From: Pirellulales bacterium
Lineage (GTDB): Bacteria > Planctomycetota > Planctomycetia > Pirellulales > JAEUIK01
Reading direction: 5' to 3'
Assembly (NCBI GenBank): GCA_019636335.1
Contig: JAHBXR010000011.1
Span: 124,001-188,000, forward strand
Length of the DNA stretch: 64,000 nucleotides
In this document: positions 26,314-59,741 of the stretch, one piece after another
How the letters are laid out: every line of letters begins with the position of its first letter
Numbering within the stretch: position 1 is the stretch's first letter
Position numbers and translations under genes: made by a program
Notes under the pieces: generated by a model
Databases searched by the model: none
The model's input: only the letters and a program-made list of their open reading frames with translations
What the model was told of the DNA's origin: nothing

Positions 26314-26396
26314 GGAGGGTAAGCGAATTGGCCAGCGGCCTGACTCGAAATCAGGTGCCCCGCAAGGGGTTGTGGGTTCGAATCCCATGCCCTCCG
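26314..26396 (+). tRNA. tRNA-Ser (anticodon CGA)
   Basis: The acceptor GGAGGGT pairs with GCCCTCC. The anticodon arm CCTGA-CTCGAAA-TCAGG gives anticodon CGA, which reads UCG. A long class II variable arm (GCCCC-GCAA-GGGG) is typical of serine tRNAs, and the T arm is GTGGG-TTCGAAT-CCCAT. The discriminator is G and CCA is not encoded. The D arm is short and somewhat irregular. Confidence 0.9.
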
Positions 26397-48642: not shown

Positions 48643-49785
48643 ATGGGAAGCGTCGAAGTTGCCCCGGTCAGTTCGCGCCGGGATCGCGCAGAATTCTTGG
48701 ATTTTGCCTGGGAGCTTTATCGGGGCGACCCGAACTGGGTCCCGCCGTTGCGGCATAACCAGAAGAAGCTCCTGGGCTTCGCGCGGCATCCCTTCCATGA
48801 AATCGCCGAGATGCAGACCTTTCTCGCGCGAAAGAACGGCCGGGTCGTGGGACGCATCGCCGCCATTCTGAACCACAATCACAACCGCCAGTATGGTGAG
48901 CAGCGGGGGTTCTTCGGCTTCTACGAGTCGATCGACGATCAAGAGGTCGCCGATAGCCTCTTCGACGCCGCCCGCCGTTGGCTCGCCGAACGCGATATTC
49001 ACGAATTGCGCGGACCCGTCAATCCGTCGATGAACTACGAGTCGGGACTTCTCATCGAGGGGTTCGACAGCCCGCCGACGTTCATGATGACCTACAACCA
49101 GCCCTACTACGCCCGGCTCTTCGAGAGCTACGGCTTCCGCAAGACGCACGACCTGCTGGCCTATTTTGGCGAGATTCAGCAGTTGCCCGAGGTCGAAAAA
49201 CGTCTCGGGCACCTGGCGGACCAGGCCATGGCCCGTTCGCAGGCGACCATTCGCCCCATGGAAAAGAATCGCTTTCGCCAGGAAGTAGAACTGTTTCTCG
49301 ACCTCTACAACCGCTCGTGTACGTCGATGTGGGGCTTTGTGCCCCTCTCGCCCGGCGAATTGCGGCAACTGGCGGCCGACCTGCGCCACTTGCTCGTGCC
49401 GGAGTTAGCCGTGGTGGCCATGGCCGAAGGCCGCGCCGTGGGGGTCATCCTGGGCCTGCCCGACTACAACCCACGCATCAAGGCCATCGATGGGCGTCTC
49501 CTCCCCTTCGGTTTCCTCAAGCTGTTGAGCCGCAAGAAGGACATCAAGCGGGTACGCGTCGTCAGCATCAACGTGTTGCCCGAGTTTCAACGCTGGGGCC
49601 TGGGGCTCGTGTTGATGCGGAGCCTGGTGCCCCACGCGCTCGGCATGGGCATCTGCGAAGCGGAATTCTCTTGGGTCTCCGAGACCAACGACCTGGCACG
49701 CATGGGGCTCGAAAAAGGCGGCGCCCAGGTCTACAAGACCTATCGCATCTACGACTACGCCGGCAAAGACGCACCGGCGACGTAG
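48643..49785 (+). CDS. GNAT-fold N-acetyltransferase-like protein
   Basis: The 380-residue protein resembles a planctomycete and proteobacterial family annotated as GNAT acetyltransferase. It has an N-terminal [40 protein letters not shown] with the Gly-Arg turn of the acetyl-CoA site, and [20 protein letters not shown] second half has [20 protein letters not shown], which matches the Q/R-X-X-G-X-G/A CoA loop. It has no signal peptide. The substrate is unknown. It is followed by purE after 116 bases on the same strand, but a functional link is not evident. Confidence 0.82.
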
Positions 49786-49901
49786 GTAGGGGGCATTCGC
49801 GACGCACGCCGTGCAAAGCGTCGTCCAATTGCTATCATGGGGGCTCCCCGTTCGCCGGTGGTTGCGGCGGGTGGTTTTCTCGTTTTGGAACGCGCACGCC
49901 C

Positions 49902-50396
49902 ATGCCCGATTCTTCCTCTCCGCTCGTTGGCGTCATCATGGGGAGCAAGTCGGACTGGGAGACGATGCGCCATGCCGACGAGGTGTTGACCGAGTTGGGC
50001 ATTCCGCACGAATGCCGCGTCGTGTCGGCCCACCGCACCCCCGACTGGATGCGTGAATATGCCCTCGAGGCCGAGTCTCGCGGAATTCAAGTCATCATCG
50101 CCGGCGCCGGGGGCGCGGCCCACCTGCCGGGCATGGTCGCCTCGCACACCTTGCTGCCCGTGCTCGGCGTGCCGGTCGAGAGCCACGCGCTGAAGGGCAT
50201 GGATTCGCTCCTCTCGATCGTGCAGATGCCGGGGGGAGTGCCCGTCGCGACGCTGGCCATCGGCAAGGCAGGCGCCACGAACGCTGCCCTGCTGGCCGCC
50301 GAGATCCTGGGCATCAGCCATCCCGAGTTCCGCCAGCGACTTCGCACGCGCCGCGAAGAGCAAGCCCGCAAAGTGCTCGGGGAAACCCTGCCGTGA
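49902..50396 (+). CDS. purE: N5-carboxyaminoimidazole ribonucleotide mutase
   Basis: This 164-residue class I PurE converts N5-CAIR to CAIR in purine synthesis. It has the nucleotide-binding start [28 protein letters not shown] with the catalytic His, [18 protein letters not shown] and [20 protein letters not shown]. The frame is open far upstream as a shadow; homology starts at the ATG at 49902. Its stop overlaps the purK GTG start by four bases, so the two are translationally coupled, as fits consecutive enzymes. Confidence 0.96.
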
Positions 50397-51547
50397 GCGC
50401 GGTGATACTTCCCGGTCGAACGGTCGGAGTCCTCGGCGGCGGCCAATTGGGACGGATGTTCGCCATTGCCGCACGACGCATGGGCTACGGCGTACACGTC
50501 TTCGTACCCGAGGACGAAAGTCCGGCTGGGCAACTCGCCGATCGCACGACGAACGCCCCTTACGACGATCTCGACGCCGTACGGCAATTTGCCCGCGGCG
50601 TCGATGTGGTCACCTTCGAATTCGAGAACGTATTGACCGCCACGGCGGAAGCGGCCGCCGAGTTCGCCCCGGTGCGCCCCGCGGGCAAAGTCTTGCATAC
50701 CACGCAGAACCGTCTCCGCGAGAAACGCTTTCTCCAGTCGGCGGGTTTTCCCGTCGCCCCCTTTGCCGAAGTCCGCACGCTCGACGAATTGCATGCGGCG
50801 CTCGCCACGATCGGCACGCCTGCCGTGCTCAAAACAGCCGGCTGGGGCTACGACGGCAAGGGACAAGCCAAAATAACGAACTCCAGTGAAGCCGCGGCCG
50901 CTTGGAAGTCGGTTGCGACCGACGAAGCGGTGCTCGAAGGATTCATCGATTTTGACGGCGAGATCTCGGTCGTCGCGGCGCGCGGAATCAGTGGCGAGTT
51001 CGCCCACTACGGCGCCATCGGCAATGCGCACCGCAATCATATTCTCGACATCTCGGTCTCGCCGGCCGACGTGAGCGAGCAACTTGCACGCGAAGCGGTT
51101 CAACTGGCACGTGGCATCCTCGAGTCGCTCGAAGTGGTGGGCGTTTTGTGCGTCGAGCTGTTCGTCACGCGCGACGGCCGCTTGATAGTGAACGAGTTGG
51201 CGCCGCGACCGCACAACTCGGGACACCTGACGTTCGACGCCTCGCTTACCAGTCAGTTCGAACAGCAGGTCCGCGCGATTTGTGGTTTGCCCTTGGGCAG
51301 CACGGAGTTGTTGCGTCCTGCGGCGATGGCGAATCTGCTGGGAGATCTCTGGCAAGGTGGCGAACCCAACTGGGCGGCCGCCTGTGCGCTGTCGGATGTG
51401 AAGCTGCACCTATACGGCAAACCCGAGGCGCGCCCCGGCCGCAAGATGGGGCACTTCACCGCCATGGCCGCCACGCCACAGCAGGCCGTCGAACGCGTCC
51501 TGGCCGCGCGTGATGCACTCGGCATTGGGCACGTGCGGAACTCGTAA
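50393..51547 (+). CDS. purK: 5-(carboxyamino)imidazole ribonucleotide synthase
   Basis: This 384-residue ATP-grasp enzyme makes N5-CAIR from AIR, bicarbonate and ATP. It starts at a GTG that overlaps the purE stop (GTGA). Motifs seen are [50 protein letters not shown] and [11 protein letters not shown] with the ATP/Mg residues. Length is normal. The next gene starts 16 bases after its stop and may share the transcript. Confidence 0.96.
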
Positions 51548-53524: not shown

Positions 53525-55558
53525 ATGAGCACCGAACAATCGGTCGACCCTCAATTGCTCGAACAGACCAAGCAGCAAATCCGCAGCTTGGTTGCCGAGA
53601 TTGCGCAAATCTCCAAGTCGAGCGTGACGCCCCTCGAGTTCTATTCCGAATTCTTGAACCGCGTCGTCCAGGCCCTCGCGGCCGTGGGGGGGGCGGTTTG
53701 GACCCCTGGTGAGGGGGGGGGGCTCCAGCTCGAATACCAGATCAATCTGCAGCAGACGCGCCTCGCCGAAAGCCGCGAAGATCAGATCCGACATCACCGC
53801 CTCTTGCAGCAAGTGCTGACGCAGGGCGAAGGGATGCTCGTCGCTCCCCACTCGGGCTCGGGGGACGACGACGGGGCGAGCAACCCGACCGAATTCCTGC
53901 TCGTCCTCAGCCCGCTCAAGGCCGACCAGCAGACCCGGGGCGTGGTCGAGGTCTTCCAGCGCCCCGGCACGCGTCCGACGACGCAACGCGGCTATCTCCG
54001 CTTCCTGCTCCAGATGTGCGAGCTGGCGAGCGACTTCCTCAAGACACGCGAGCTGCGGCACTTTACCGATCGCCAGCAGTTGTGGTCGCAGCTCGAGCAG
54101 TTCACGCGTTCGGTCCATTTGAGCCTCGATCCCCACGAGACCGCTTTTACGATCGCCAACGAAGGTCGCCGCCTGATCGAGTGCGACCGCGTAAGCGTGG
54201 CGATTCGACACGGCCGTAAGTGCAAGATCGAAGCGATTAGCGGTCAGGACACTCTCGACAAACGCTCGAACGTCGTCACGCTGCTCAATCAATTGACCAC
54301 CGCCGTCGCCGCCACCGGCGAGCCGATGTGGTACACCGGCGACACGTCGAACATGGCGCCCCAGGTGGAAGACGCCGTACAGGCGTATGTGGACGAACAG
54401 CACTCGAAGACCGTGGCCGTGTTGCCCCTCAAGCGTCCGGCCGAGCCGGGACAGATCGAGGACGAAGAAGACAAACGCGAGACGATCGGCGCGCTCGTCG
54501 TCGAGCAGATCGAAAACGCCCGCCCGCGCGAAGGCATGTTGCAGCGCGTGGACGTCGTCACCGAGCATAGTAGCGCCGCTCTGTCGAACGCCCTGGCGCA
54601 TCACGACCTGTTCCTGATGCCCCTCTGGAAAACGCTGGGCAAGTCGCGCGTCGTCGTCGAGGCGCGGCATTTGCCCAAGACGATCAGCGCGCTGATCGCC
54701 GTCGTCGGCGTAATCGCGGCGCTGTTCCTCATTCCCGCCGATTTCGATCTCGAAGGCCGCGGCGTGTTGCAGCCCGTCATTCGCCGCGAGGTCTTCGCGG
54801 GCATCGATGGCGACGTCACCGACGTCGAGGTCGATCATGGCGATATGGTGACCGCGGGCCAGGTCGTGGCCCGCATGCGCAATACCGATCTCGAAGTGGC
54901 CATCCGCGATCTGCTCGGCCAGTTGCAGGAATCGGACGAACGTCTCGATTCGTTGCGTTACCTGACGCTGAACAGCAACAACCGCGTCGATCAGCAGCAG
55001 CGCGACCAGGCCGCGGCCGAGATCCAGGCCCTCGAACAGAAACGCAATGCGCTGCAGAACGAGCTCGAACTGAGCCGCGAGAAGAAAAAGAAGCTGGAAG
55101 TCGCCAGCCCGATCGACGGGCAGATCGTCACCTGGGACGTGTACGACAACTTGATCTTCCGCCCCGTGCAGCGCGGTCAGGTGCTGATGCAGGTGGCCGA
55201 TCCGTCGAAGGATTGGGAGCTCGAGGTCTACATGCCCGAGGACCGCATGGGGCACATCGCGCAGGCGCAATCCGAGAGGGGGGCCGACCTGCCGGTGAAG
55301 TTCATTCTGGCGACTGATCCCGCCACCGAGTACCAGGGGCGCGTCACAGAGGCGCACCTCTCGGCCGAGGTCCGCGGCGATCAGGGCAACACCGTGTTGA
55401 TCCGCGTGGCCTTCGACAAGAGTCAATTGCCGCCGAATCCTCGACCGGGCGCGGGGGTGCAAGCGCAGGTGCATTGCGGCCGGGCGTCGATCGGCTACGT
55501 CTGGTTCCACGACCTCGTGGCGTTCGTGCAATCGAGAATTCTGTTCCGGTTTTTCTAG
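53525..55558 (+). CDS. GAF-domain / HlyD-type membrane-fusion protein
   Basis: The 677-residue protein has an N-terminal cytoplasmic part with two GAF-like regions (about 10-175 and 195-345; the second has DPHETAFTIANEGRRLIECD and VSVAIRHGRKCKIEAISGQ). One membrane helix follows (TISALIAVVGVIAALFLIPA, about 385-405). The rest is a periplasmic HlyD-type adaptor: a lipoyl-like start GVLQPVIRREVFAGIDGDVT, a coiled coil rich in Glu and Gln, and a second lipoyl half with ASPIDGQIVTWDV. Such adaptors bridge inner-membrane machines to the envelope. The sensory GAF part is unusual. It opens a three-gene set. Confidence 0.85.
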   Translation: MSTEQSVDPQLLEQTKQQIRSLVAEIAQISKSSVTPLEFYSEFLNRVVQALAAVGGAVWTPGEGGGLQLEYQINLQQTRLAESREDQIRHHRLLQQVLTQGEGMLVAPHSGSGDDDGASNPTEFLLVLSPLKADQQTRGVVEVFQRPGTRPTTQRGYLRFLLQMCELASDFLKTRELRHFTDRQQLWSQLEQFTRSVHLSLDPHETAFTIANEGRRLIECDRVSVAIRHGRKCKIEAISGQDTLDKRSNVVTLLNQLTTAVAATGEPMWYTGDTSNMAPQVEDAVQAYVDEQHSKTVAVLPLKRPAEPGQIEDEEDKRETIGALVVEQIENARPREGMLQRVDVVTEHSSAALSNALAHHDLFLMPLWKTLGKSRVVVEARHLPKTISALIAVVGVIAALFLIPADFDLEGRGVLQPVIRREVFAGIDGDVTDVEVDHGDMVTAGQVVARMRNTDLEVAIRDLLGQLQESDERLDSLRYLTLNSNNRVDQQQRDQAAAEIQALEQKRNALQNELELSREKKKKLEVASPIDGQIVTWDVYDNLIFRPVQRGQVLMQVADPSKDWELEVYMPEDRMGHIAQAQSERGADLPVKFILATDPATEYQGRVTEAHLSAEVRGDQGNTVLIRVAFDKSQLPPNPRPGAGVQAQVHCGRASIGYVWFHDLVAFVQSRILFRFF

Positions 55559-55581
55559 TTCGATCGCCTGGTGAATAAATC

Positions 55582-55655
55582 AAGTGGCACAGGCGGTCAG
55601 CCGGTGCTGCGAAGAGTTGAAAGACAAGGCACAGGCCAGCGGCTTGTGCCACTAG
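55582..55655. repeat. Palindromic repeat between the first two genes of the trio
   Basis: AGTGGCACA (55583-55591) is complementary to TGTGCCACT near the right end. GGCACAGGCC with GGCTTGTGCC forms a local hairpin. It belongs to the same group as 39529-39602 and may attenuate read-through. Confidence 0.6.
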
Positions 55656-55680
55656 ACCGCACATCGCGGAGAGAAAGAAT

Positions 55681-56649
55681 ATGAACGTGCTCTTCCCAGT
55701 CCTTACCGCGATCGCCCTGGCTGGTCAGGCTCCGGCCGAACGGGGCAACAGCGCGCCGATTCAATCGGCGGGCGAAGTGACGCTGCCACGCTGCCTGCTG
55801 GCCCTCATCGAAGAGGCCGAGGTACCTGCCCGCGAAGCCGGCCAACTCGTCGCGCTCGAGGCGTACGAAGGGCAATCGGTCGATAAGGACGACTTCCTCG
55901 GCCAGATCGACGATAGCATTGCCAAGATGGAGAAAATCGTCGCCCAAAAGGAACTGGCCATTTCCGAGGAAGAGGCCAGCAGCATGATCAACATCCACTT
56001 TTCGGAAAAGGCGACGAAGGTCGCCCAAATGGAATACGAGAAGGCGGTCGACGCGAACAAGCAGTTCAAGGAAACGGTCTCGCACAGCGAGTTGATGAAG
56101 CGTCTGTTCGAGTGGGAACGCTCGCGACTCTCGATCGAGAAGGCCCTGCAGGACCAGAAGATCGCCAAGCTGACGGCCGATGCCAAGGGAGCCCAGGTCG
56201 ATGCCTCCGATCAGAAGATTCAGCACCGCGTCATCACGGCCCCCATCCCGGGCATCGTGGTGCGCAAGTTCAAGAAGTATGGCGAATGGGTGAACCCCGG
56301 CGATCCGGTGGTGCGCATCATTCGTATGGATCGCTTGCGGATCGAAGGGCTCGTTGACGCGGACTACTACAGTGCCGTCGATCTCAACGGTCGCCGCGCC
56401 ACGGTGCGTGCCGAGTTGCCGCATGGCCGCGTCGAGCAGTTCGACGGCAAGATCGTCTACGTGCATCCCGAGATCGAGCCGGGGCACAAGCGGCGCGTCT
56501 GGGCCGAGGTGGTCAATCGTCGCGAGGATGACGAGTGGCTGCTGCAGCCGGGGCTGCGGGCCGACATGACGATTCACTTGCAAAGCCCCGCCGTCGGCGC
56601 CGAGGGCCTCAGCGGCTCGAGCGCGCCGAATCAGGGACGCTATCGCTGA
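55681..56649 (+). CDS. HlyD-family membrane-fusion protein
   Basis: This 322-residue protein has a short, weak signal peptide (NVLFPVLTAIALAGQAP) and then a typical HlyD-type fold: a lipoyl half (ALIEEAEVPAREAGQLVAL), a long coiled coil (about 75-170, rich in Lys, Glu and Ala), the second lipoyl half (ITAPIPGIVVRKFKKYGEWV) and a beta-barrel (RIEGLVDADYYSAVDLNGRR). GGAGAG lies nine bases before the ATG. It should be a periplasmic adaptor working with the flanking genes of the trio. Confidence 0.85.
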   Translation: MNVLFPVLTAIALAGQAPAERGNSAPIQSAGEVTLPRCLLALIEEAEVPAREAGQLVALEAYEGQSVDKDDFLGQIDDSIAKMEKIVAQKELAISEEEASSMINIHFSEKATKVAQMEYEKAVDANKQFKETVSHSELMKRLFEWERSRLSIEKALQDQKIAKLTADAKGAQVDASDQKIQHRVITAPIPGIVVRKFKKYGEWVNPGDPVVRIIRMDRLRIEGLVDADYYSAVDLNGRRATVRAELPHGRVEQFDGKIVYVHPEIEPGHKRRVWAEVVNRREDDEWLLQPGLRADMTIHLQSPAVGAEGLSGSSAPNQGRYR

Positions 56650-56775
56650 GATCAACCTGTTCCACGACTCGACGCGCGTGACCTGCCCACGCCCCGTGCG
56701 CGGGATGGCACGGCACGTTCGATGAGCCGCCGATTTGCCTCCCCGACAGACCTCGCCGACACGACCTGACGCAAC

Positions 56776-59013
56776 ATGGCGACTCTCGCCGACAGCCTGG
56801 TTTCCAGTTCCGCCCGCCAGCTCACGCTGCGCAAGCGACCCGATCTTACGGCGGAGAAGCAACGCTATCAGGGTTGCACCTATTGGGTGGTCAAGGATCC
56901 GGTCGGACTCAACTACTTCCGCTTTCACGAAGAGGAATATGCCATCTTGCAGATGCTCGATGGCAAGATCAGTCTCGACGAGATCAAGGAGCGGTTCGAG
57001 CGGCAGTTCCCCCCCGAGAAAATCACCGTCACCGAGTTGCAGCAGTTCCTGGGCACGCTGCATCGCAGCGGGCTCGTGATCGCCAATGTGCCGGGGCAAG
57101 GGCACCAGTTGCGGCTGCGCCACGGGGAACGTCGCCGCAAGGAACTTCTCGGCGCCCTGTCGAACGTGCTGGCGATACGGTTCAAGGGGATCGACCCCGA
57201 TCGCCTGCTCACCTGGATGCTGCCCCATGTCAGGTTCATGTTCCATCCGGCGACGGTGACGCTGTGCATGCTGTTCGCGCTTTCGGCGCTGACGCTCGTC
57301 ACCGTGCAGTTCGACGTTTTCCAGTCGAAGCTGCCCACGTTCCATCAGTTCTTCACGCTGCAGAACGCCTTCTGGCTATCGGTGACGCTGGGGGTGACGA
57401 AGGTTATCCACGAGTTCGGCCACGGGTTGTCGTGCAAGTATTTCGGCGGCGAGTGCCACGAAATGGGCGTGATGGTGCTGGTGTTAACCCCCTGTCTTTA
57501 CTGCAACGTCTCGGACTCGTGGATGTTGCCCAATAAGTGGCACCGCGCGGCGATCGGCGCGGCTGGCATGTACATCGAGGTCGTCATCGCCTCGATCTGC
57601 ACGTTTATCTGGTGGTTCAGCGAGCCGGGCATGCTGAATCACCTGGCCTTGAGCACGATGTTCGTCTGCTCGGTGAGCACGCTCATTTTCAACGCCAATC
57701 CGCTGCTGCGCTACGACGGCTACTACATCCTCTCGGACATCACCGAGATTCCAAACCTGCGCCAAAAGGCCACCTCGATTCTCAGCCGCACGTTGAGCGA
57801 GTGGTGCCTGGGCATCGAGCAGCCCGACGATCCGTTCCTGCCGGAGCGGAACCAGATGTTCTTCGCCGCCTACAGCGTGGCGGCGGCCGTCTATCGCTGG
57901 TTCGTCGTCTTCTCGATCATGTGGTTCCTCTACAAGATCTTCGAGCCCTACCGACTGCAGATCATCGGGCAGGCGATCATTCTGCTGGGCCTGTATGGCC
58001 TGCTGGTCCAGCCATTGTGGAAGTTGGGCAAATTCTTCTACGTGCCCGGGAGAATCGACAAGGTGAAACGCAAGAATCTGCTGGGTTCGCTCGCCGTGGT
58101 CGCGGCCGTGGCCGCGGCGATCTTGTTCATCCCCCTGCCGTTCCGTGTGCTCAGCACGTTCGAAGTGCAACCCCACAACGCCAGGCCGGTTTACATTGAC
58201 GTGCCTGGCACGCTCGAGAAAATCGACGTGCGCGAAGGCGCCGTGGTCGAAAAGGGGACGCAACTGGCGATGTTGTCGAGCATCGACGTGCAGATCGACA
58301 TCTCCAAGCTCGAAGGACAACGGGCCTTGTTCACGGCCCAGATCGACAGCCTCGAGCGACAGATACTCAATAACGACCGACTGGCCGCCTTGCAGCTTCC
58401 CGACACGAAGGTCCAACTCGAAACGGTCCTCGATCAGCTCCGCGAGCGCGAGACCGATCGCAAGCGGCTGACGCTGACCGCGCCCATGACGGGCACCGTG
58501 CTCCCCCCCCCGGAGACGCCCAAGAAGGACGATCCGACGCGCCAGCTACCCACCTGGCACGGGACACCGCTCCAGCATCGCAATCTGGGCAGCTTTCTGC
58601 AGCCGGGCGTCTTGTTCTGCCAGATCGGCGACCCCAAGAAGCTCGAGGCAGTGCTCGTCGTCGATCAGGCCGACATCGACTTCCTGGCCGAAGGTCAGGA
58701 GGTCGACCTCAAGCTCGACGAGTTGCCGGGCGAGACATTCCACGGCACGATCCACCGCATCTCGAAGGACGAACTCAAGGTCAGCCCGAAGCAGTTGTCG
58801 AACAAGGCCGGTGGCGAGCTCCCCACGAAGACCGACGAAAGTGGCGTCGAGCGACCGCTGAGCACCTCGTACCAGGCCCAGGTCCTGCTCGAAGACCCGA
58901 GTGGCGTGATGCGACTCGGCTTGCGCGGCACCGCCAAAATCCACGCCGGCCATCGCACCATCGGGCAACGTCTGTATCGCTTTCTGTATCAGACGTTCAA
59001 TTTCCGGATGTAG
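56776..59013 (+). CDS. PqqD-like / site-2 protease (M50) / HlyD fusion
   Basis: The 745-residue protein has three parts. Residues about 25-105 resemble a PqqD-type peptide-binding winged helix (DPVGLNYFRFHEEEYAILQM, then a LDGKISLDEIKERF segment). Residues about 155-460 are multi-pass membrane with the zinc-protease motif HEFGH (212-216) and the distal ligand Asp314 in NANPLLRYDGYY, which marks a peptidase M50/site-2 protease core. After a last membrane helix (about 434-456) a HlyD-like adaptor follows with coiled coil and lipoyl halves (TFEVQPHNARPVYIDVPGTL, RLTLTAPMTGTVLPPP). Related proteins occur in peptide or bacteriocin export loci. The substrate here is unknown. Confidence 0.85.
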   Translation: MATLADSLVSSSARQLTLRKRPDLTAEKQRYQGCTYWVVKDPVGLNYFRFHEEEYAILQMLDGKISLDEIKERFERQFPPEKITVTELQQFLGTLHRSGLVIANVPGQGHQLRLRHGERRRKELLGALSNVLAIRFKGIDPDRLLTWMLPHVRFMFHPATVTLCMLFALSALTLVTVQFDVFQSKLPTFHQFFTLQNAFWLSVTLGVTKVIHEFGHGLSCKYFGGECHEMGVMVLVLTPCLYCNVSDSWMLPNKWHRAAIGAAGMYIEVVIASICTFIWWFSEPGMLNHLALSTMFVCSVSTLIFNANPLLRYDGYYILSDITEIPNLRQKATSILSRTLSEWCLGIEQPDDPFLPERNQMFFAAYSVAAAVYRWFVVFSIMWFLYKIFEPYRLQIIGQAIILLGLYGLLVQPLWKLGKFFYVPGRIDKVKRKNLLGSLAVVAAVAAAILFIPLPFRVLSTFEVQPHNARPVYIDVPGTLEKIDVREGAVVEKGTQLAMLSSIDVQIDISKLEGQRALFTAQIDSLERQILNNDRLAALQLPDTKVQLETVLDQLRERETDRKRLTLTAPMTGTVLPPPETPKKDDPTRQLPTWHGTPLQHRNLGSFLQPGVLFCQIGDPKKLEAVLVVDQADIDFLAEGQEVDLKLDELPGETFHGTIHRISKDELKVSPKQLSNKAGGELPTKTDESGVERPLSTSYQAQVLLEDPSGVMRLGLRGTAKIHAGHRTIGQRLYRFLYQTFNFRM

Positions 59014-59025
59014 CGGATCCGAGTC

Positions 59026-59343
59026 ATGATGAGTAAAGCGAAGATTAAACCGAGCGTTTCTCACGACAAGGCACTCGTTCGCGAGTTGCGCGAGCGGCCT
59101 CAATTCGCCGTCGAGTACCTGAAGGCGGCGCTCGAGGACACCGAAGAACCGAAGGTGCTGCTGCTTGCCCTGCACCACATTGCCGAGGCACATGGAATCA
59201 GCAAGATTGCCAAAGCGGCAGGCATCGAGCGAGAAAGTCTCTACCGAGCACTTTCGCCGCGCGGCAATCCGCGACTATCGACACTGGTGGCCGTATCGCG
59301 AGCCATGGGGTTGCAGCTCACGGTCGAGCCTGTCGGCAAATAG
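59026..59343 (+). CDS. HigA/HI1420-type addiction-module antidote protein, orphan
   Basis: The 105-residue protein has the pattern of the HI1420-like antidote family: LRERPQFAVEYLKAALED, then VLLLALHHIAEAHGISKIAK and a helix-turn-helix with ERESLYRALSPRGNPRLSTL. Such proteins bind DNA and neutralise a RelE-like toxin usually encoded just upstream. Here the protease gene ends 12 bases upstream and no toxin gene is present, so it is an orphan. It may now act as a plain regulator. Confidence 0.82.
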   Translation: MMSKAKIKPSVSHDKALVRELRERPQFAVEYLKAALEDTEEPKVLLLALHHIAEAHGISKIAKAAGIERESLYRALSPRGNPRLSTLVAVSRAMGLQLTVEPVGK

Positions 59344-59489
59344 AACCTTTGTTCTCTGCTGTGCCTCGTTGAAGTTTGACGCGGCTAGCAACCCCTGGCT
59401 ACTGCCATGCCTCCTTTGGTGGAAGCCTCGCGCGACGTCTAATTGAAAAAACCGTTGGATAATGAGTGGCCCTGATCGGGGAGCATTCT

Positions 59490-59741
59490 ATGAAAACGAC
59501 ACTCAAGGGAATTGTTCACGGCAGGATCATCGAGTTGTCCGATTCGCTTGGCGTCCCTGACGGTCACCAAGTCGACGTTACGATCGAAACAGATCGCTTT
59601 TCCTCCCCCACGAGCGATGAAGCGCGCGCCGCGCTATTACGTTCAGCCGGTGCCTGGGCCAACGAAGGTCCTGAACTCGACGAGTATCTAGAATGGTGCC
59701 GTCAGCAGCGCAAGCTTGATCGACCGGAGATCGAGCCGTGA
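59490..59741 (+). CDS. VapB/AF2212-type antitoxin, toxin lost
   Basis: This 83-residue protein begins MKTTLKGIVHGRIIELSDSL and continues GVPDGHQVDVTIE, a beta-type DNA-binding antitoxin start seen in PF01954-like VapB partners. The C-terminal half is a charged toxin-binding tail (LDEYLEWCRQQRKLDRPEIE). GGGGAG lies seven bases before the ATG. The stop overlaps the GTG of a truncated toxin reading frame, as in intact vapBC operons. Confidence 0.78.
   Translation: MKTTLKGIVHGRIIELSDSLGVPDGHQVDVTIETDRFSSPTSDEARAALLRSAGAWANEGPELDEYLEWCRQQRKLDRPEIEP

Follow-up and report, generated by a model that had tools for sequence, protein, structure and literature searches.

The stretch of DNA analysed here (the window) comprises 64 kb on contig C11; the planctomycete genome to which it belongs measures 6.38 Mb. 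Three open reading frames encoding 677, 322, and 745 amino acids lie on its plus strand, exactly where a previous sequence-only reading had placed a GAF-HlyD, an HlyD, and a PqqD-M50-HlyD gene; all of these domains were found, and the order of the three genes is conserved among related loci. The first gene (53525..55558, +) encodes a GAF-TM-HlyD protein of 677 amino acids with a cytoplasmic GAF region, one membrane span, and a periplasmic adaptor. Its GAF domain at residues 202-346 (54128..54562, +) was identified by Pfam (PF01590, 1.1e-8; 36.1 bits at a cut-off of 22.4), and a weaker second GAF-like stretch covers residues 39-169 (GAF_3, PF13492, 1.3e-4). The single membrane span, predicted by hydropathy scan at residues 382-411 (54668..54757, +), separates the GAF part from the HlyD domains at residues 425-633. 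The second gene (55681..56649, +) encodes an HlyD-type periplasmic adaptor of 322 amino acids, as judged from Pfam (HlyD_3, 51.3 bits) and hydropathy. Its hydrophobic N-terminus is likely a Sec signal, and it has no other transmembrane segment.

Immediately downstream of the trio, an HI1420-type antitoxin-like HTH protein is encoded (window 59026-59343), beside which no partner toxin was recognised in the window, and a small ORF without Pfam match follows at 59466-59741. Upstream, an ordinary purine pair consisting of a PurE-like frame and PurK (50393-51547) occupies positions 48978-51547. The sole Rfam match in the window is a weak-scoring tRNA at 26314-26396.

The third gene (56776..59013, +) encodes a protein of 745 amino acids (protein 3), in which Pfam, NCBIfam, alignments, and the predicted structure revealed a fusion of an RRE/PqqD domain, an M50 site-2 protease, and an HlyD domain. 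By sequence, the PqqD match stays below the Pfam gathering score (15.1 versus 23.4 bits); a plasmid-encoded homologue passes it with 28.7 bits. The structure of protein 3 was predicted with AlphaFold from 48 homologues (mean pLDDT 85). In this model, residues 16-103 (56821..57084, +) form the three-strand, three-helix leader-binding fold of a PqqD-like RiPP recognition element (RRE). They match the leader-binding domains of TbiB1 and lasso B1 over nearly their whole extent (Z 10.0 and 9.7; 84 residues; 2.9 A), and the matched structures 5v1v (Z 10.0), 5v1u, and 6jx3 (Z 9.7) were solved with leader peptides. The PqqD-like domain recognised in the sequence-only reading is thus borne out by the predicted structure, though its Pfam score is below the cut-off. 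Residues R21, D23, K40, P42, L45, Y47, and R49 of the RRE are conserved, and K40, Y47, and R49 would fit an acidic leader.

The multi-span M50 core of protein 3 scores above the Pfam cut-off (30.2 versus 27.2 bits). Both its HEFGH zinc motif at residues 212-216 (57409..57423, +) and an NPLLRYDGYY motif at residues 308-317 (57697..57726, +) are invariant in the alignments, including H212, E213, H216, N308, and D314. The NPLLRYDG stretch, which we take to match the NPxxxDG motif of M50 proteases, lies like HExxH in membrane helices, and D314 is expected to provide the third zinc ligand. Sequence similarity to solved site-2 proteases is weak (3b4r, E 0.29); the listed structural matches leave the M50 part uncovered, which does not speak against the assignment. 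HExxH was kept in all family homologues checked, distant members among them (30/30, 49/49, and 15/15 from plasmids). Had most homologues lacked HExxH or the PqqD groove, the sequence-only reading would have been overturned by its own criterion; no such loss was found. The C-terminal part (residues 454-736; 58135..58983, +) is a periplasmic HlyD/MacA-like adaptor domain with an alpha-hairpin. It matches HlyD_D23 and HlyD_3 in Pfam, and residues 454-726 of the predicted structure match MacA with a Z score of 17.

Scanning bacterial and archaeal genomes yielded 80 planctomycete loci, with the window counted as the 81st, and neighbouring genes were counted by clustering within the limits set by contig ends. 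The M50 gene was joined by the GAF-HlyD gene in 57/81 and by the HlyD gene in 65/81 loci. The most frequent small neighbour was a DUF3467 protein, present beside the trio in 28 loci (e.g., L048:12378-12794), found also in proteobacterial operons, and encoded on contig C13 in the genome of the window. In deeper Planctomycetota lineages, DUF3467, GAF-HlyD, M50-HlyD, and SecA-like genes form one operon. The search for a conserved small ORF that had been proposed for homologous loci was successful as such, but did not deliver an obvious precursor peptide: the DUF3467 protein, the only small neighbour recurring among the 81 loci, is devoid of leader-like features and may have a role in substrate handling. 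The BBP7 porin (6 loci) and other neighbours were rejected as core parts, being too rare or lineage-bound.

In seven Pirellulales-type loci, the trio is adjoined by a gene for a divergent SecA-like ATPase of approximately 650 amino acids. The genome of the window encodes an orthologue at C3:352552-354432, on another contig than the trio. In a quick tree, this protein and the trio-linked copies formed one group (100% SH-aLRT), and nine housekeeping SecAs made up a single, fully supported clade of their own. SecA domains were confirmed by Pfam in five of the plasmid and planctomycete copies, and SecA2 models scored far below their cut-off. No ABC exporter occurred among the identified recurrent planctomycete neighbours or in seven annotated SecA-type plasmid loci. 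The missing energy source of the trio is a SecA-like ATPase and not an ABC ATPase; the sequence-only reading, which had noted that the window contains no ABC ATPase, was right to suggest that the partner is encoded elsewhere and wrong or incomplete as to its type. It had also listed no outer-membrane channel in the window, in agreement with the TolC-family matches of the genome, which all fall on contigs other than C11. An independent report of the same SecA-linked module has been published (Kamneva, Poudel, Ward, 2015; PMC4452313).

Homologues of protein 3 are also encoded on annotated proteobacterial plasmids, in two types of loci. Those of the SecA type comprise genes for a giant protein, DUF3467, an HlyD protein that often includes GAF, PqqD-M50-HlyD, a SecA-like protein, and HlyD and/or TolC, with some parts absent from individual loci (in Thalassospira, no SecA was present within the annotated stretch). 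Their SecA-like genes are annotated as SecA, helicase, 'prepilin peptidase', or hypothetical, and of three HlyD proteins analysed with Pfam, two contain GAF. The second type is devoid of SecA and comprises genes for a giant protein, TolC, HlyD, an HlyD without GAF, and M50-HlyD. In this sister form (L249, L245, L248, L254, and L255), TolC is accompanied by giant DUF4347, Ig-like, or tandem-95 proteins with an LE[PA]Rx[MLV][FY]D-like tag. No ATPase was visible in these SecA-less loci, though the giants there are similar. Both a TolC-like gene and a large surface protein had been put forward as neighbours worth surveying, and both indeed adjoin the proteobacterial loci.

All adjacent giants with a readable N-terminus (11/11) carry a LEPR-type motif. 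The six from SecA-type loci read VEQLEPRLLLAAD, DTLEPRVLLNAD, LDPMEPRVLLSAD, VEPIEPRILLSAD, MEALEPRFLLSAD, and FEALEPRLLLSAD, and the five from SecA-less loci read LALEPRMMFDAA, MALEPRFMFDAA, SLEPRMLFDGA, MALEARYMFDAA, and LALEPRVVYDAS. The flavour of the motif follows the type of locus, with LEPRxLLxAD in the former and ALExRxx[FY]DA or LEPRMLFDGA in the latter. If the loci were independent, such a split would have a probability of 1/462, but the SecA-less loci form one clade, so that the split does not represent eleven independent events and is taken as supporting evidence only. In L238 (NZ_CP123586.1), a LEPR motif lies upstream of the annotated start of a giant of 8000 residues, and the start is therefore probably misplaced in the record. 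A SapC family protein adjoins the loci of the system in two Rhodobacterales plasmids (L223:14218-15039 and L238:2058-2855).

When the genome of the window was searched with the core motif as a degenerate DNA pattern, 18 matches were obtained, and none with the reversed control. Conservation within these matches is partly built in, since the pattern was designed around the motif; two features outside its design are a frequent proline two places past the first conserved residue and an end of conservation just after LLA/S. In 17 of the 18 cases, the match lies in an open frame of about 850 to more than 2300 amino acids, 33-125 residues past its start. The 40 residues preceding the motif are basic and contain no hydrophobic core in any of them, the 12-residue mean hydropathy before the motif being below 0.6 compared to 2.5 for a Sec signal. 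Beta-helix, PKD, Ig-like, or RTX domains were present in those motif proteins that were checked, and a motif protein encoded beside the SecA-like gene of another planctomycete (G121) has a dockerin domain. The 24-position model NF012209 had no match in the genome of the window at E 0.001, though the core motif is the same. As this model alone finds no cargo there, a profile was built from the genome's own motif sequences, which returned 25 places at E 0.01. In total, about 25 proteins of this genome, mostly large and surface-like, have an N-terminal LExLExRxLLA/S and no ordinary signal peptide. One match in this genome (G000), in a tRNA-synthetase-like protein, as well as those in G081 and G179, were discounted as internal or chance matches.

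Within the genome of the window, no linkage of motif genes to the trio was found; as they are dispersed, their connection with it there is statistical only. In other planctomycetes, the trio or SecA-like loci are flanked by motif proteins, with 14 N-terminal matches (two of them in stretches fetched for LEPR hits), one match in an internal control stretch, and none in reversed N-termini. The only exception to HExxH conservation that was met is a distant paralogue on contig C1 of the window's genome (L002:1438-3753, approximately 521.6-524.0 kb), which has a PqqD-M50-like N-terminus and an HlyD domain and, judged by its missing HExxH, is a dead protease. It is followed on the opposite strand by a TolC-family gene and a motif protein, and the surrounding 35 kb or so contain a second TolC gene as well as genes for two more motif proteins. 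This group of three motif genes and two TolC genes was not counted as significant.

Co-occurrence was explored in 199 Planctomycetota genomes, 45 of which contain the machinery, defined as a long M50-HlyD match of at least 100 bits. The cargo criterion was the presence of large motif proteins (with a size filter of 700 residues, chosen by hand) or of LEPR-8K matches. Large motif proteins were found in 20/45 genomes with and 3/154 genomes without the machinery (odds ratio 40, p 2.5e-12), a p-value which, like those that follow, overstates independence because the genomes are related. The association persisted when the window's own class was left out (11/33 versus 3/154, p 2.7e-7), when counts were made by family (11/24 versus 3/57, p 4e-5), and when the profile was used alone without size filter (20/45 versus 9/154, p 5.9e-9). 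Pattern totals were 95 versus 24 for the control in machinery genomes and 75 versus 64 for the control in the others, which thus have hardly any excess. By profile or LEPR-8K models, 25 of the 45 machinery genomes had no motif match; some of these carry the divergent variants LEPRLALA and LEQRIMLDA, which do not explain all of them. Three genomes had a match and no machinery, namely G165, G179 with an internal false match, and G186 with a genuine N-terminal motif protein. The G186 genome, in which no machinery was detected, is 91% complete and 6% contaminated.

Taken together, we consider it probable that the trio supplies the inner-membrane and periplasmic components of a type-I-like, SecA-powered machine that exports large, motif-tagged surface proteins. 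The earlier suggestion that the three proteins process and export a leader-bearing substrate is thereby upheld as the probable function. The motif proteins are strong candidates for the cargo, given their linkage and co-occurrence with the machinery. Their putative tag would consist of a basic stretch without hydrophobic core, followed by LExLExRxLLA/S, 20-125 residues from the frame start; its proteobacterial version would be LEPRxLLSAD. The RRE of protein 3 would bind this leader at the membrane, expectedly on the cytoplasmic face, a step proposed with moderate confidence. The short SecA-like ATPase may push the cargo chain. SecA normally requires SecY, and confidence is weak both for the direction in which the ATPase would work and for the identity of the membrane pore. 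The M50 domain would trim the leader by a cut in or close to its LLA/S end, which is likewise suggested with moderate confidence. The HlyD parts of all three proteins may form a periplasmic conduit to a TolC-family channel, and the GAF part of the first protein may gate or regulate the exporter. Such a chain from RRE via SecA, M50, and adaptors to TolC is the simplest arrangement for a leader without Sec core, a leader-binding fold, a protease, three adaptors, a SecA-like motor, and a neighbouring proteobacterial TolC.

Other explanations were weighed against this exporter. A role of the motif as a general mark of surface proteins, e.g., for anchoring or folding, which the machinery would export without reading it, is unlikely, though the least so of the alternatives: motif genes are unlinked to the trio in the genome of the window, and one motif-bearing genome has no detected system. 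It is opposed by the motif shared across phyla among 11/11 adjacent proteobacterial giants, by its location at the position of a signal in proteins without an ordinary one, and by the leader-binding fold of the machine. Less probable still is a RiPP-type system in which the RRE-M50-HlyD protein would mature a small peptide and export it, in the manner of the daptide or epipeptide pathways. The predicted RRE fold would suit it, and among NCBIfam models, protein 3 is matched best by the daptide intramembrane metalloprotease and YydH/LiaK. On the other hand, the loci have no conserved precursor-like small ORF, with only DUF3467 recurring, the loci read contain no recurrent peptide-modifying enzyme, and giant motif proteins occupy the place of the precursor in proteobacteria. 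The sequence-only reading had considered a peptide or a membrane-anchored substrate. A small RiPP or a membrane-anchored peptide is unlikely, and the evidence points to giant LEPR-motif surface proteins instead.

Two further functions fit the data poorly. GAF and M50 domains would also be present in an envelope signalling protease, with GAF sensing a cytoplasmic ligand, M50 performing regulated intramembrane proteolysis, and HlyD merely spanning the periplasm. We regard this as very improbable: a set with three adaptor domains, partners of the SecA-like and TolC kinds, and genes for giant cargo points to export, and no conserved regulator is found nearby. An efflux pump for small molecules or metals, built from unusual parts, is less probable still: the HlyD parts do resemble the MacA and MexA adaptors, but the conserved set contains no pump protein, and the SecA-like ATPase, the RRE, the protease, and the giant neighbours would be left unexplained.

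Beyond the exporter itself, the chances are about even that it represents a distinct Gram-negative pathway for very large proteins, common to Planctomycetota and Proteobacteria. In such a pathway, an N-terminal RiPP-like leader would take the place of a Sec/Tat signal peptide and be read by an RRE that forms one protein with an intramembrane protease and a periplasmic adaptor, a dedicated SecA paralogue would be the motor, and the SecA-less sister form would use another flavour of the tag. For a locus without known role since 2015, this amounts to a definite prediction of the cargo and of a short, mutable signal. If true, it would account for the export of giants without signal peptides by planctomycetes and many proteobacteria, it would put a RiPP-style leader reader at the service of giant proteins, and it would offer a rule for annotating proteins that at present appear cytoplasmic when judged by signal-peptide predictors.

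Among known systems, the closest is the secondary SecA_DEAD / T1SS-related module (Kamneva, Poudel, Ward, 2015; PMC4452313). It comprises the same GAF-HlyD, HlyD, M50-HlyD, and short SecA genes in the same phyla, sometimes with TolC, and its short SecA has no scaffold/wing region. According to that paper, Methylobacterium extorquens AM1 has the locus as META1p2402-2399. By this description, the genome of the window contains the module, with the trio together and a second short SecA_DEAD gene linked to it in relatives. The biological role of the module is stated there as completely unknown, and its main text names no substrate, leader motif, LEPR, or DUF3467, nor do the sections consulted mention PqqD or an RRE. 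LEPR-XLL proteins (NF012209, LEPR-8K) are giants with an N-terminal LEPRxLL, encoded in the same operons in proteobacteria. In the open-access literature searched, we found no link between this name and a secretion machinery, and nothing on a planctomycete combination of PqqD, HlyD, and M50.

The M50 core of protein 3 is arranged like that of the daptide protease (NF041824) and the YydH/LiaK epipeptide protease (NF058609). The scores of protein 3 are below the respective cut-offs (185.7 bits versus 300 and 50 bits versus 225). The daptide model spans the PqqD-like stretch as well, with a match from residue 31, but unlike protein 3, both models stop short of an HlyD domain, and the substrates of these proteases are small RiPPs. 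With type I secretion (HlyB-HlyD-TolC), the trio shares the logic of adaptor and TolC and a large, often RTX-containing cargo; it differs by a SecA-like ATPase instead of an ABC exporter, and by a proposed N-terminal rather than C-terminal signal. In Gram-positive bacteria, accessory SecA2 systems likewise have a second SecA, which in known cases serves special, often large surface proteins, whereas the present system is Gram-negative and has HlyD adaptors and an M50 protease. The machinery was thus known as a locus and LEPR-XLL as the name of a protein; the proposed link between the two as exporter and cargo, and the proposed reading of the motif as a leader, are new here.
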